From contig JAHBTJ010000019.1 of assembly GCA_019638595.1 (NCBI GenBank), forward strand, positions 62,001-126,000: a stretch of DNA of 64,000 nucleotides, given 5' to 3'. The stretch comes from Chitinophagaceae bacterium. GTDB lineage: Bacteria; Bacteroidota; Bacteroidia; Chitinophagales; Chitinophagaceae. The position numbers and the translations under genes were made by a program. Shown here in pieces: positions 807 to 51,900 of this stretch; position 1 is the first letter of the stretch; each line of letters opens with the position of its first letter. The notes under the pieces were generated by a model. That model was given only the letters and a program-made list of their open reading frames with translations, had not been told where the DNA came from and made no database searches.

Positions 807-1115
807 ATGAACATTTATGTTTCTAATTTAAGCTTCAATGTAGTTGATGAAGACTTAAAAGCTTTTTTTGAAGAATACGGTGAAGTATCTTCTGCCAGAG
901 TTATTACCGACAAATTTACCGGCCGCAGCCGTGGATTTGGTTTTGTTGAAATGCCCGATGATGAAGCCGCTAAAAAGGCCATCACGGAATTAGACAAAGG
1001 CGTGGTAGAAGGCAGAGCAATTACTGTTACTGAGGCCAAACCCCGCGAAGAACGCAGCAACAACGGCGGTGGTAACAGGCGCTCTTTTGCAGGCAGCAGC
1101 CGTAGCCGTTACTAA
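807..1115 (+). CDS. RRM-domain RNA-binding protein
   Basis: This 102-residue protein is a single RNA recognition motif. RNP2 is IYVSNL near residue 3, and RNP1 is RGFGFVEM near residue 42, with the aromatic residues that stack on RNA. After the domain ends (about residue 80) there is a short basic tail rich in Gly, Arg, Ser and Asn, as in cyanobacterial Rbp and Bacteroides Rbp proteins. Such proteins bind single-stranded RNA in the cytoplasm; in Bacteroides one of them works with small RNAs. The gene is monocistronic, with its own -7 element, a long leader, and a strong hairpin terminator at 1161-1208. Its RNA targets cannot be told from sequence. Confidence 0.93.
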   Translation: MNIYVSNLSFNVVDEDLKAFFEEYGEVSSARVITDKFTGRSRGFGFVEMPDDEAAKKAITELDKGVVEGRAITVTEAKPREERSNNGGGNRRSFAGSSRSRY

Positions 1116-19244: not shown

Positions 19245-19273
19245 ATAAAAAAGCCCCGCTAAAAGCAGGGCTC
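19245..19273 (-). terminator. Intrinsic terminator of ncRNA copy A
   Basis: The minus strand reads GAGCCCTGC-TTTTA-GCGGGGCTTTTTT: an 8-bp stem with one C-A mismatch, then a T-run. Confidence 0.85.
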
Positions 19274-19598
19274 AATATGTTGAAATCTTGTCAGAGGTAG
19301 GTTCGTTAGCAATAACGGTTTTAATAGAGGCTGACGGACTTCGGGGGACAGGCATTGGCTTTTCAGGATCCGGATAGTGATAATTCAAAAGATCAGTCCG
19401 GCTTTTCAATAGCCTGGATTCAGTTCTTCAACAGATTTGGACTTGTTACGGTTCTCCGGATATTGGACTGTTGGTTGGGTTCTTCTTAAGATGGGATATT
19501 CTTTCTCAGGGTTCAGGATTTTCAAGGGATCGGGGGCGGCTTATCCAGGATTCGGGTTTGTTTGGCTTTTCTTTCAGGATATCGTTATCATTAATGAC
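19247..19598 (-). ncRNA. Putative ~350-nt non-coding RNA, copy A
   Basis: No credible protein is encoded here. Read on the minus strand, the element has a promoter-like block (19603-19637), a 230-nt stretch poor in G, in which degenerate 22-25-nt units carrying ATCC and TGAAAA-nCC recur, a conserved 3' module, and an intrinsic terminator (19245-19273). The 3' module has GAAGTCCGTCAGC, then the hairpin CGTTA-TTGC-TAACG, then CCTCTGACAAGATTTCAA; GTCAG and CTGAC can pair around the hairpin. The same architecture, at nearly the same length, recurs at 48448-48850 on the plus strand. See copy B. Confidence 0.6.
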
Positions 19599-19602
19599 AA
19601 TA

Positions 19603-19637
19603 CAAAGATGTTCAATATCTGCCTGCTGCGGAACTTA
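19603..19637 (-). promoter_or_regulatory. Promoter block of ncRNA copy A
   Basis: The minus strand reads TAAGTTCC, 18 nt, then ACATCTTTG followed by TATTGTC. The same two blocks at the same 18-nt spacing precede copy B, where the first is TAAGTTTC. ATCTTTG resembles the -7 element. Confidence 0.55.
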
Positions 19638-19786
19638 TTTCGCCGGGAGGGCTTTTTGTTTCGATGTTTGGTACGATATCTTCGATTAAGCGGCTTTACA
19701 GAGGGCTTTTATCGTTTAAAAAGATTATTTAAGCAAGTTTGTTTTAAAATTTGCGAACTTAGTTCATAAACCAACCTGTTCATTAT

Positions 19787-47304: not shown

Positions 47305-48310
47305 TTACTTACCGTCTAATATTGCTTTCACTTTCTTTTGTAATTGTTTTTTGTCAGGCAGGTAAATCTGATATTTTGAAACAAAGATTTTGTTGGAGAT
47401 TCCACCCGTAGCAAATTCAACCAATACTTCGTCCTTCTCGGCTGAAAGAATAATACCGATTGGTTCATTGTCGCCTTCAACATTTTCTTCTGTCTTGAAA
47501 TAATTCAGGTAAAGATTCATTTGCCCAATGTCGCCATGGTCAACCTTTCTTATTTTGAGGTCTATCAAAACAAAACATTTCAAAATTCGGTGATAGAAAA
47601 CAAGGTCAATATAGTAATGCTTGTTGCGGAGTGAAATTTTGTATTGTCGTGCTACAAACGCAAATCCTTTTCCCAATTCAAGTAAGAACAGTTGCAGGTT
47701 GTCAATAATTTTTTGTTCAAGTGCTTTCTCGGTTATTCTGTGACTTTGCGGTATTTTGAGAAAGTCCAAAACATAAGGGTCTTTGATGGCTTCTGTAGGT
47801 TCGGAAACAATATACCCTTTCTCTGAAAGTTGCAACACACCTTTTTTTGTCCTTACTTAATGCAAGCCGTTCAAACAAAGAAGAATCAATCTGCCTTTCA
47901 AGTTCACGATAACCCCAATTTTCAAGTATAGCCTGCTTTTCGTAAAATTTCCGTGCGGTGTCGTCCGAAACCGCAAGTAAGGTTATAAAATGTGTCCAAC
48001 TCAATTTGGCAGGCACTGCCTGCCATTTCTGATAAGCAAGATAAAACCTCCGCATATCAAGGATGTTCCGCCTGCCAAATCCTTTACCATATCGTTGTCT
48101 TAAATCTTTGGAAAGCCTTGATAATAGCTCACTTCCGTATTCTGCTCTTTCTTGCCCGTGCTGCTCATATTCCACTATGTGCCTGCCAATTTCCCAGTTG
48201 GCTTTTACCAATTCAGTGTTTACGGCTTTGAAAGCATTTTGCCTCGCTTGTTCAATAGTAAGACCTATGCTGTCAAGCAGTTGGTTATATTTATTTGAAG
48301 CTGGCTTCAT
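47305..48310 (-). pseudogene. YhcG-family (DUF1016) PDDEXK nuclease, frameshifted
   Basis: Two overlapping frames encode one protein. The N-terminal half (48310 down to about 47842) is the DUF1016 helical domain (TIEQARQNAFKAVNTELVKANWEIG, GFGRRNILDMRRFY). The C-terminal half (from about 47838 down to 47305) is the PDDEXK nuclease fold with YYIDLVFYHR and VLIDLKIRK, plausibly the catalytic Asp, Asp and Lys. The break is at a run of seven A on the coding strand (47842-47848). With six A, the frame joins exactly as LSKDKKG-VLQLSEKGY. YhcG proteins are usually linked to restriction-modification and mobile regions, but none is seen here. It could be a true pseudogene, a phase-variable gene or an assembly error. 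Confidence 0.85.
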
Positions 48311-48316
48311 TGTTTG

Positions 48317-48324
48317 CAAATATA
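48317..48324 (-). promoter_or_regulatory. -7 promoter element of the yhcG-like gene
   Basis: The reverse strand reads TATATTTG, 6 bp from the ATG at 48310: a near-leaderless arrangement. Confidence 0.5.
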
Positions 48325-48447
48325 GCCCAAATACTTAGGCTTATTTGATGGTCAAAAAATTCAATGGTTGTACGTGAGCGCATTCCAAAATTCTCCTTAT
48401 CGAAGCTATTCTCCCAAAAATCGAAGTATTCTTTTCCTTTACCGAAT

Positions 48448-48482
48448 TAAGTTTCAAAGCCGCTGATTCCTTTACATCTTTG
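48448..48482 (+). promoter_or_regulatory. Promoter block of ncRNA copy B
   Basis: TAAGTTTC (48448-48455), 18 nt, then ACATCTTTG (48474-48482) followed by TATTGTC. The 16-nt ACATCTTTGTATTGTC is identical in copy A, at the same spacing from the TAAGTT block. Confidence 0.55.
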
Positions 48483-48486
48483 TATT

Positions 48487-48846
48487 GTCAAACAGCGATA
48501 CAAAATCCACATCCACTGAAAACCGGTAACCGTTAGAAAAGCACAACCTCTATAATCCAATCCACCGAAAGCCATCAATATCCCGGAAAAGCTGATATAA
48601 TAAATCCGATCCGCTGAAATCCAGATCCAATCCTACACAATTACCAAACATCAATCCAATCCCTGCAAAAACCGGAAATCCTCATTCATTGAAAACCATG
48701 TCCAAATCTTTTGAATAATCAACGTATCCTTAAAAACCAAGCCTTAACCGAAGTCCGTCAGCTTTTTATTAAAACCGTTAGTTGCTAACGTCCCAGCCTC
48801 TGACAAGATTTCAAAATATTGAGCCCCGTGTTTAGCGGGGCTTTTT
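48487..48846 (+). ncRNA. Putative ~360-nt non-coding RNA, copy B
   Basis: No open frame of note. After the promoter block comes a G-poor array in which the box AATCCnATCCnCYGAAAnCC occurs at 48504, 48554, 48603 and 48653, a spacing of 50, 49 and 50 nt, with weaker half-units in between. From 48750 there is a module shared almost letter for letter with copy A: GAAGTCCGTCAGC (48750-48762), the hairpin CGTTAG-TTG-CTAACG, CCTCTGACAAGATTTCAA (48797-48814), then an intrinsic terminator. GTCAG and CTGAC can close a stem around the hairpin. The 5' array sequence differs between copies while its style is kept. Probably a paralogous RNA family; function unknown. Confidence 0.6.
48822..48846 (+). terminator. 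Intrinsic terminator of ncRNA copy B
   Basis: AGCCCCG-TGTTTAG-CGGGGCT followed by TTTTT; same position and sequence type as in copy A. Confidence 0.85.
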
Positions 48847-48849
48847 GTT

Positions 48850-48965
48850 GTAATAAGTTTTTGTTGCGGCTGTTACAGGTTACAGGTTAATCCTACTGTG
48901 GCATAAGGCAAAAGGTGTAGGGTCGTAAACCCTCCGCCTTCCACCCTATACCCTCCACCATCTCC
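48850..48965. repeat. Short intergenic repeat sequence
   Basis: Contains GTTACAGGTTACAGGTT (about 48870-48887), the complement of AACCTGTAACCTGTAA-like sequences found at 599-616 and 1266-1285, followed by a pyrimidine-rich tract with an imperfect inverted repeat (GGTGTAGGGT and ACCCTATACC). No gene. Confidence 0.4.
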
Positions 48966-51900
48966 CTATCTCTTTTCATACGCTGGCAGCGTAGGCGCCG
49001 TATACCCCTTCGTTTTCATCAGGTTCTTTATTTCCGTAATGGCGCGTTCCAGTTGAGGATCTGTACCTTTGGACATTGCTGTCAGATCTTCCGGCACTTC
49101 AATATCAGGATCAACGCCATGCCCTTCCTTAAACCAGGTACCATCTGCATTATACATGCGGAAAGTAGGCACGGTAATCCCTCCGCCATCTATCAGGCCG
49201 GGGCACCCGCTTATACCTATCAGTCCGCCCCAGGTTCTTGTTCCTATCAGGGGTCCTAATCCTTTCTTCCTGAAAAAATCAGGAAAGGCGTCACCACCTG
49301 AACCGCTCCAGCCGTTCATCAGCATTACCTTGGGGCCAAAATTAGATTGCGGCGGCCATGGCCAGTCTTTTCCATCACGTATAGCCCAATACGCCAGCGG
49401 TGGGCGGTCCAGCATTTCTATGAACCTGTCGGGGATCTGTCCGCCATCATTGAACCGTTCATCAACTATCAGCGCTTTTTTATCTGATTGCGCGTTCAGT
49501 TGACGCAACAATTCTGTTTGCCCGTCAATGCCGGTGCTTGGTACATAAATATAACCCACCTCTCCGTTCGTAGCATCATTCACACGTTTACGCATACCCT
49601 CAATCCAGGCAAGATTGCGTAAACGATATTCATCATCCATTGTTTTTACAACCGCTGTTTTAGCGTTGGAGAAGGAGGGAGTGTTGTTATAAGTAAGCTC
49701 TACCGTTTTGTTGGCAAGGCCAATAAAAGCAAGATAGGGCTCCTGTGTTGTGGTGAGGGGCACACCATTTACCGCCAGTATATAGTCGCCTTCTTTTATT
49801 TTTATTCCGGATTCTGCCAAAGGCGAATGTTCTTCTGCATCCCATGTAGCGCCTCTTACTATTTTTTTGATCCTGTAGTGTTTGCCGTCGGCCTGCCAGT
49901 CAACGCCAAGGTAGCCGCAGGATTCCATTTTTTCATTTTCGCCATCGCCGCCCCCATGATAGGTGTGAGACGCATTTAATTCGCCGATCATTTCGCCTAT
50001 AATAAAATCAACCTCTTCTCTTGTCATGGCATCGTTCAGCATTTTCATATAGCGCTCCTTTACCAGGTTCCAGTCAACACCATGCATGTTAGGATCGTAG
50101 AAATAATCTCTTTCCAACCGCCATGCATCTGTAAAAAGTTGTTTCCACTCCTGCTGCGGATCAACTGTCATCATCATTTCCGCAATACGAACGGATTTTT
50201 CAAATTTTTGATTCTCCTCTGGTTTTATTACTGCATAAGCGCCAGCCTGCGATACCAGCATTTTTTGTTTGTTGTCAGAAAGCCAATAATTGTTCGCGCC
50301 ATCGAGTATTGTTTTTTCTTCCCGCTTTTCAATATCATAAAACTTAACGGAGGGCTTGCTTTCTGGGGCGCCGGTATTGGTATACCGTATATAAATCACC
50401 TTGCCGTTAACCGCCGTTAATTTACCGAGATTACCTGATGGAGGTGGAAGCAGTACCATTCTTTGTTCGAAGCCATCAAAATCTATATCAACCGGCTTCT
50501 CTTTTTCTTTCTTGTCTTCCGCTGAAGTTTTATTGCTGTCCCTGCCTTTTTTCTTTTCATCTTTTTTTGATGTATCCGACGGTTTTTCTTCATCGGCCTT
50601 AAGCGATACCGAATCATTCTTTGCAGCAAGAATAGAGGGAGTATCGTTTTTCAACGCTATGGCAGCCAGTTGCGTTGAATTGGCATAAATAAATGAATTG
50701 TCAAAATCTCCGTAATAAGGTAGAAATTTCTGGGAGGTAAAAAGGAACAAATATTTTCCTTCTGTATCAAAAGTTGGTTTGGTGCAATTATAATAGCCGC
50801 TGGTTGCCTGCTGCTTTGTTTTATTTTTTGTATCGTAAATAAAAACCGCGTTATGCCAGTTTTCTACATCGCGGTTATATGCCAGCCACCTGCTGTCGGG
50901 CGACCAGCTGCAAGAGAAATTCTCCTGCTCGTCATAAGAATATCGCAGCGCCGCATCAACATCGTAGGTTTGGTTTACAGCAAGATCGTATACTTTCATT
51001 TTGTTGGCGTTGTCTAAATAGCAAAGCTTTTTACTATCCGGACTCCAGAATAAGCTGTAACGGAAACCGGGACCATAGCTGGTTATTTTTTTCGCGCTGT
51101 TTTCTTTACCGGCTTCCATCAGCCATAATTCATATTCCCCGCTTTGATCGCTCCAGTAAGCAATGGTTTTACCATCGGGGCTCCACGAGGGGTAACGTTC
51201 CGCGGCAGTGGTACTCATCGTGAGGTTTTTTACAAAACCATCCTGCGCGGGCAGGGAAAAAATTTCTCCTCTTGCTTCCACCAGTACCCGGTTACCATCG
51301 GGGCTGATGTTTACATGCTGTATATATTTATCCGCTTTCTCCAACCTCGGCTTTAACGCGGTTCTGTCCATTACCACAGTTACTTTTATTTCCTTATACC
51401 GGAGAGTGCTCAAAGAAAAAAGATATAATTTACCCGCCTGTTCAAAAACGATATCATCCGGCCCCATTGATGGATAATGGGCGTCGTAATCTGTGAACTT
51501 CGTTAATTGTTCAAATGTTTTTTTGCCGATATCATATCTCCACAGGTTCATGCGCTGTTCCGGGCCACGATCGGTAAGAAAATAAATATAATTGCCATGC
51601 CACATCGGGAACTCATCTGCCCCATTGCTGTTAGCGGAAATATTTTCTGAAGTCAGCGTTTCAAAATTAAAAATATGTATATCCGCGTTCCATCCGCCAC
51701 GATAACGTTTCCAGTTACGCCCAACCTGTGTACGGAAGTTCAGCGCCATTTGTTTGCCATCGGGAGAATAAGAACCATATTCTGCGTAGGCGAGCGGTAA
51801 TTTTGACGCAGGCCCTCCTGTTGCAGGTACTGTATAGAACTGGTTGAAACGATATTTACCGCTTTCCCTGATAGAAGCGAACAACACGCTTTTTCCATCA

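Follow-up and report, generated by a model that had tools for sequence, protein, structure and literature searches.

What is encoded between positions 48448 and 48850 of the 64,000-nucleotide stretch of a Chitinophagaceae genome analysed here (the window), where a preliminary description had proposed a new non-coding RNA family carrying a 50-nt periodic array? Judged from sequence and its comparison, this locus, called copy B, most likely specifies an ncRNA of about 360 bases with many copies of a short motif. It apparently belongs to a multi-copy RNA family, undescribed so far, whose genes most likely share one switch, and this switch is probably worked by a sensor-regulator system that is often encoded beside the RNA genes. 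The RNA may soak up a regulatory protein as sponge RNAs do, although with different parts. The element and its parts, in window positions, are the following.

48397-48847, plus strand: copy B, promoter through terminator
48397-48405, plus strand: promoter box 1, TTATCGAAG, putative LytTR regulator site (ungapped alignment of 32 promoters, 98 columns)
48418-48426, plus strand: promoter box 2, AAATCGAAG, separated from box 1 by a 12-bp spacer (CG invariant in the 32 aligned promoters)
48439-48447, plus strand: promoter box 3, TTACCGAAT, separated from box 2 by a 12-bp spacer and adjoining the -33 region (promoter alignment)
48475-48482, plus strand: -7-like element, CATCTTTG (promoter alignment)
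48490-48847, plus strand: predicted copy B ncRNA, about 358 nt
48504-48740, plus strand: array of degenerate AAUCC/AUCC-UGAAAA units, with boxes at 48504, 48554, 48603 and 48653 and weaker ones
48750-48812, plus strand: 3' module (found by model R2 in every one of the 12 genus genomes)
48750-48755 with 48807-48812, plus strand: outer pairing of the 3' module, GAAGTC with GATTTC
48757-48761 with 48800-48804, plus strand: stem GTCAG/CTGAC of the 3' module, enclosing the CGTTAG/CTAACG hairpin (48776-48790)
48822-48846, plus strand: intrinsic terminator, hairpin and T run (covarying pairs)

Much of what had been said of copy B itself holds on reading the sequence. The interval carries no protein gene (no ORF of at least 60 aa, and a longest ATG ORF of 6 aa within the predicted RNA), it is G-poor (47 G in 361 nt), and the GTCAG/CTGAC stem around CGTTAG..CTAACG is present together with the terminator. 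The AATCC boxes start at 48504, 48554, 48603 and 48653 as claimed. The longer 20-nt box proposed around them recurs, with up to three mismatches, at 48505 (three), 48554 (none) and 48603 (none), that is, at 3 places against a mean of 0.39 expected by chance, whereas 48653 does not match at this limit. A generic repeat finder run over 48200-49000 reported nothing, because the units are too degenerate. The whole RNA folds no better than its shuffles (z -0.10). Transcription is predicted to start at about 48488-48493, the RNAs being expected to begin a few bases 3' of CATCTTTGTATTG; in calling CATCTTTG -7-like we take the -33/-7 promoter form to be typical of Bacteroidota. The promoter boxes (48397-48447) fall just outside the interval first described. 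A DUF1016/YhcG PDDEXK nuclease gene (window 47305-48319, minus strand), split over two overlapping frames with the DUF1016_N and YhcG_C parts, sits between a phospholipase-C gene and copy B.

Copies of the element, their promoter and their 3' end

BLASTN found further copies on contigs C24, C11 and C28 of the same genome (G000) and in other genomes of the genus. The C11 copy, at 19247-19688 of the window on the minus strand, is probably the one that had been labelled copy A:

19591-19688, minus strand: copy A promoter, of the same type (R1 match G000:C11:81593-81688)
19247-19602, minus strand: copy A RNA, sharing body words and 3' module with copy B

When the copies are compared by reading, the body drifts and the 3' end is conserved, and the promoter could be aligned without gaps in 19 of 20 copies, the twentieth having missed the search pattern by one base. 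This shared promoter, with a 21-bp box spacing that had escaped the preliminary description, consists of three CGAA boxes (9-bp boxes, 12-bp spacers). Across 32 promoters it aligns over 98 columns without a gap, the boxes beginning at columns 5, 26 and 47. C5 and G6 of box 1 are kept in at least 90% of these promoters, and the CG of box 2 (columns 26-27) and the CGAA of box 3 (columns 47-50) are invariant, the invariance of box 3 and CATCTTTG being partly by construction because both were fixed in the pattern by which 13 outside promoters were taken, with boxes 1 and 2 left free.

A model of the promoter (R1) matches in all 12 genomes of the genus, at 4-11 places each (E ≤ 0.1) and at nine in the genome of copy B. 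In a family sample searched with stricter filters, 96 of 294 genomes have a match at E ≤ 0.01 among the matches listed, many of these short and weak, and 39 have one at E ≤ 1e-4. In an order-wide sample the latter threshold is reached in 10 of 298 genomes, nine of the ten within the same family. The promoter occurs in part of the family, apparently the Chitinophagaceae. A pattern scan of named genomes gave 30 stretches, with titles including Terrimonas, Niastella and Agriterribacter, besides metagenome genomes labelled Chitinophagaceae, Chitinophagales, Sphingobacteriales, Bacteroidetes or Bacteroidota.

The 3' end tells a similar story of conservation. Eighteen sequences fold as GAAATC/GATTTC plus TCAG/CTGA plus terminator, and two-sided changes are seen in 8 of the 18 pairs; the terminator holds five of these, and the outer stem the other three, each in two sequences. 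The inner stem is nearly invariant and therefore says little on pairing. A covariance model of the 3' module (R2) gives 30 matches, with all 12 genus genomes represented, and every match lies on the same strand as an R1 promoter and 0-600 nt downstream of it; 17 of the 30 had been used to train the model, and of the other 13 one is identical to a sequence so used. The CGTTAG hairpin, first taken as a part of this module, is confined to 5 of the 18 aligned copies, those closest to copy B.

By position weight matrix, the examined loci contain 105 distinct promoters, and a terminator was found for 90 of them. Simple rules sort them under rough labels into class I (59), class II (22), class III (8) and others (16). 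Class I RNAs measure about 225-474 nt by terminator scan; class II RNAs measure about 130-180 nt and carry AGGATA near the 5' end. The existence of other RNA classes under the promoter type of copy B was not part of the preliminary description. Among the promoters whose downstream stretch was read, none drives an evident protein. Tandem sRNA genes with the same promoter were seen at L150, L151 and L155-L158 (in G010, G182, G005, G008, G003 and G006), including four promoters in a row in G182. Genes of one family lie upstream of 11 of the 22 class II promoters; the single member scanned is alpha-2-macroglobulin-like.

For the analysis of the RNA bodies, the 59 class I RNAs were first cut to the 50 that had a terminator and scored 42 or higher, then to 46 by removing near-identical sequences. 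The longest ATG ORF in these 46 has a median of 14.5 aa and a maximum of 68, and neither they nor the copy B interval hold a conserved ORF of the kind that a protein-coding gene would need. Neither the whole window nor 16 related loci matched an Rfam 15 family at the gathering threshold; at E ≤ 10 the interval had eight matches, none of which came near that threshold (best: E 0.0049, 23.1 of 86 bits). With homologues that keep the 3' module in other genomes, the proposal of a new ncRNA family is supported, and comparative genomics indicates that the copy B RNA gene is real. That it is instead a degraded mobile element or a functionless interspersed repeat, as the preliminary description had allowed, is extremely improbable: there are several copies per genome, some in tandem, but 48200-49000 has no inverted repeats, no transposase is found among three scanned genes beside copy B, the copies lie at syntenic places (beside a phospholipase-C gene 85% identical for the B-type copy in G005, a tricorn/S41 protease gene 90% identical in G004, quinolinate phosphoribosyltransferase type genes at eight loci and ATP-synthase beta type genes at ten), and promoter and 3' module are kept while the remainder diverges. 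In G005 the homologous phospholipase gene is 114 bp from the sRNA promoter.

A LytTR phosphorelay as the probable switch

The geometry of the three boxes, 9 + 12 bp, is that published for LytTR sites and therefore counts for a LytTR regulator. In the accessible part of PMC6193735, such a site is defined as 9-bp direct repeats with an 11-13 bp spacer, and LytTR proteins are described as using such repeats, in most cases with a spacer of 12 bp, immediately upstream of promoters. Here the 9-bp direct repeats have spacers of 12 and 12 bp and lie upstream of the core promoter, and a cognate LytTR protein co-occurs with them. In 14 cases among the 105 promoters, the gene closest upstream lies on the same strand and encodes a protein of 229-233 aa; all 14 proteins have Response_reg and LytTR domains and an invariant receiver D55.

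These regulator genes, which adjoin part of the family and had been missed before, stand in a conserved module of kinase, HPt, LytTR regulator and sRNA. In the genome of copy B, a 134-aa gene precedes the LytTR gene, and a gene for a hybrid kinase, which combines PAS, HisKA, HATPase and receiver domains, is divergent from the LytTR gene. G005 likewise carries the regulator gene beside one copy of the element and has several more copies. The 134-aa protein carries the HPt motif HxxKPxxG; Pfam Hpt (PF01627) recognises 18 of 18 homologues at E ≤ 0.05, with 5.4e-11 as the lowest value; the protein itself, at E 0.0046, falls below Pfam's cut-off. Regulator orthologues were found in 53 family genomes (56 at E ≤ 1e-50, minus G113, G189 and G261, with only 38-42% identity). 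Among 20 contexts hand-picked from these 53 for reading, an HPt-sized gene (126-139 aa) precedes the regulator in 17, and a divergent kinase is present in 17, in 16 cases with both kinase motifs by regular expression and in one case with one; the G080 and G018 contexts have neither gene, and their regulators are 51-53% identical to the query.

Promoter and regulator also occur together. An R1 promoter lies 6-673 bp downstream, on the same strand, of 34 of the 53 regulator orthologues. Across the 294 family genomes, with R1 at E ≤ 1e-4, 38 have both, 1 the promoter only (G048), 15 the regulator only and 240 neither, so that the regulator is present in 38 of 39 genomes with a good promoter against 15 of 255 others; counted by genus the figures are 16, 1, 6 and 78, and the Fisher statistics on such counts ignore shared ancestry. 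At E ≤ 0.01, among the matches listed, R1 matches in 48 of 53 regulator genomes against 48 of 241 others, and 48 of the 96 promoter-positive genomes have the regulator.

Alternatively, another factor could activate the promoter, the LytTR gene being merely a frequent neighbour of one ancestral copy. Such a neighbour could owe its place to common descent, and among the 53 regulator genomes 8 have promoter copies only elsewhere and 11 have no promoter among the matches listed. However, the co-occurrence persists by genus, the box geometry suits LytTR, and the eight other copies in the genome of copy B lie away from the regulator gene and yet fit the same promoter model; we consider this alternative distinctly unlikely. 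The preferred reading is that a phosphorelay (histidine kinase, HPt and LytTR response regulator) would switch the copies on together, the regulator binding the three CGAA boxes just upstream of the core promoter, as co-occurrence, adjacency and site geometry suggest. In other genera, RNA-like stretches downstream of a LytTR gene (L214, L215, L221, L222 and L227) share words, among them GTGACGGTTATC..ATCCGTACAGTATGAAAACT and CTCCTCGGAGAAAAACC.

The repeated units and their candidate ligand

The body of the RNA is built of units that read roughly (A)AUCC n AUCC nn UGAAAA n CC. In the 46 class I RNAs, ATCC, AATCC, TGAAAA and AAACC all occur far more often than in dinucleotide shuffles (TGAAAA 118 against 30.6, AATCC 169 against 58.1, ATCCTT 41 against 5.3), and counting by a simple anchor gives 2 to 14 units per RNA, with a mean of 6.4. 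The 50-nt period, offered earlier as a trait of the family, is peculiar to copy B; elsewhere in the 46 the spacing is irregular, distances of 16-27 nt being the commonest. The idea of an array of repeated binding-type units is nevertheless supported, and a sponge remains the leading idea. Motif bases are predicted to be unpaired slightly more often than the rest of the body: over 45 RNAs, the one RNA without a motif being left out, the values are 0.67 and 0.62, a small effect. They are also better conserved between related copies (76% against 66% identity), in 17 of 19 pairs, with the opposite in 2 of 19; these pairs share sequences and are not independent, and one group in the comparison, 'A/C24-like', mixes paralogues and orthologues. 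In two RNAs, L071 and L203, internal tandem duplication of units can be seen by eye.

A word search of the genome revealed a second sRNA family with the same AUCC/UGAAAA units, at G000:C10:123199-123759 (L270) and G000:C34:25356-25510 (L290). The L270 RNA has the promoter TTTCTTTGTGTAACAAATCC, without the three boxes, and the terminator GCAACAGAAAATG..CATTTTCTGTTGC; the terminator of the family has the pair CAACAGAAAATG/CATTTTCTGTTG. BLASTN finds this family in 11 of 12 genus genomes at E ≤ 0.01, most of the matches having been read. That two RNA families differ in their ends and control and still have the units in common points to a shared ligand. A short interspersed repeat, GGGCTGGATAGAAATCC..GCCCCG..TTTT followed by AATCCAATATCCTATGAAAAACC, recurs within a few hundred bases on the minus strand at L268 (G000:C19:66500-67700) and L269 (G000:C3:185800-186800), and amounts to one array unit beside a hairpin.

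Since the units are enriched, slightly less paired, better conserved, tandemly duplicated in two RNAs and reused in a second family, we favour, by analogy, titration of a protein over the alternatives. At the level of sequence, each RNA carries several AAUCC/AUCC and UGAAAA units and ends in the 3' stem and terminator; the units would then titrate a shared RNA-binding ligand, most likely a protein, whose mRNA targets the signal would free. This last step is the least certain. The scheme would resemble that of CsrB/RsmZ, although motif and protein would both differ. In the genome of copy B, the Hfq model found no match (it matched in 5 of 14 control genomes), nor did the CsrA model PF02599 (which matched in 3 of 14); the RRM_1 model found four proteins, of which one lies in the window:

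807-1115, plus strand: gene for a small RRM_1 RNA-binding protein, candidate ligand of the array

The proposal as a whole, phosphorelay-switched multi-copy sRNAs whose units titrate a shared RNA-binding ligand, appears to us reasonably likely. More tentatively, the Chitinophagaceae might possess a Csr-like global post-transcriptional system made of new parts. In it, RNAs offering one and the same AUCC/UGAAAA array to an RNA-binding protein, which might be among the four RRM proteins, would be turned on by the LytTR phosphorelay and, through another promoter, by one further signal or more.

The RNAs could instead act by base-pairing, with AUCC/UGAAAA as repeated antisense seeds against GGAU/UUUUCA in mRNAs or in class II RNAs. 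Class II RNAs carry AGGAUAAAGGAUC or similar, their GGAU motifs are partly complementary to the units, and duplex energies between 17 class II RNAs and the class I RNAs of the same genome lie slightly below those with shuffled class I (mean z negative in 14 of 17, about -0.5 overall). The Bacteroides FopS sRNAs are described, in the accessible part of PMC11697453, as pairing with susC start regions. The z values are weak, however, with means from -1.51 to +0.31 by a method that ignores site accessibility, and the units are degenerate and irregularly placed, unlike a conserved seed. Base-pairing therefore seems to us unlikely, and as for class I serving as the antisense partner of class II, the lean is too slight for it to be preferred. 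The word ATCCNNTGAAAA occurs 51 times in the genome of copy B against 9 for its reversed control; the 14 of 30 loci that were read follow no pattern, being mostly intragenic and on both strands, with two shortly upstream of genes.

Rho favours C-rich, G-poor and unstructured RNA, and the body, with A 39%, C 27%, G 13% and T 21% and no more structure than shuffles, might accordingly be a decoy that binds Rho, or else a site where Rho loads and so limits how long the RNA becomes. This is quite improbable, as UGAAAA and AAUCC are far more frequent than dinucleotide composition predicts and the intrinsic terminators are retained with covarying pairs.

Relation to known systems

Protein titration remains the preferred reading, and under it the copy B RNA would work most like a phosphorelay-controlled sponge RNA. 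The Csr/Rsm systems (CsrB/CsrC and RsmX/Y/Z, GacS/GacA-controlled) likewise consist of co-regulated sRNAs under two-component control with repeated short protein-binding motifs. Their motif, however, is multiple GGA in loops, whereas copy B has GGA only twice and its enriched words are ATCC and TGAAAA; their protein is CsrA/RsmA, whereas the genome of copy B has no CsrA match, and here the regulator is of LytTR type and the phylum another. Because motif and protein both disagree, the family is not a member of Csr/Rsm.

In Vibrio, LuxU-LuxO-Qrr links a hybrid kinase, an HPt protein and a regulator to several redundant sRNAs; LuxO is a sigma-54 activator, and the Qrr RNAs use Hfq and base-pair. 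The layout of kinase, HPt, regulator and multiple sRNAs is thus alike, and the sigma-54 activator and Hfq-dependent pairing differ. AgrA-RNAIII is a case in which a LytTR regulator drives an RNA effector. The family shares with LytTR systems the presence, ahead of the promoter, of 9-bp direct repeats whose spacers there are mostly 12 bp (accessible part of PMC6193735), but differs from them and from AgrA-RNAIII in its three boxes, separate HPt protein and set of paralogous and unrelated sRNAs. FopS/GibS of Bacteroides, with RbpB, are likewise multicopy sRNAs in Bacteroidota; as the accessible part of PMC11697453 has it, they measure about 65-70 nt, against about 225-474 nt for class I, have canonical sigma-ABfr promoters, act by seed base-pairing and are described without a unit array. 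A search of open-licence papers, with PMC11697453 and PMC7366714 among those consulted, brought up no account of LytTR-driven sRNAs or of arrays of this kind in Chitinophagaceae.

Sequence evidence lends good support to the RNA family, its promoter and its likely regulator. Little is known of post-transcriptional control in Bacteroidota, and the genome of copy B yielded no match to Hfq or CsrA. With a phosphorelay driving a set of array-bearing sRNAs, the regulator would have a name, and its site and the RNA motif would be defined, so that both halves of the proposal, the switch and the soaked-up ligand, could be tested directly. If the proposal is true, it would suggest that phosphorelay-controlled sponge RNAs have arisen more than once, with different motifs.
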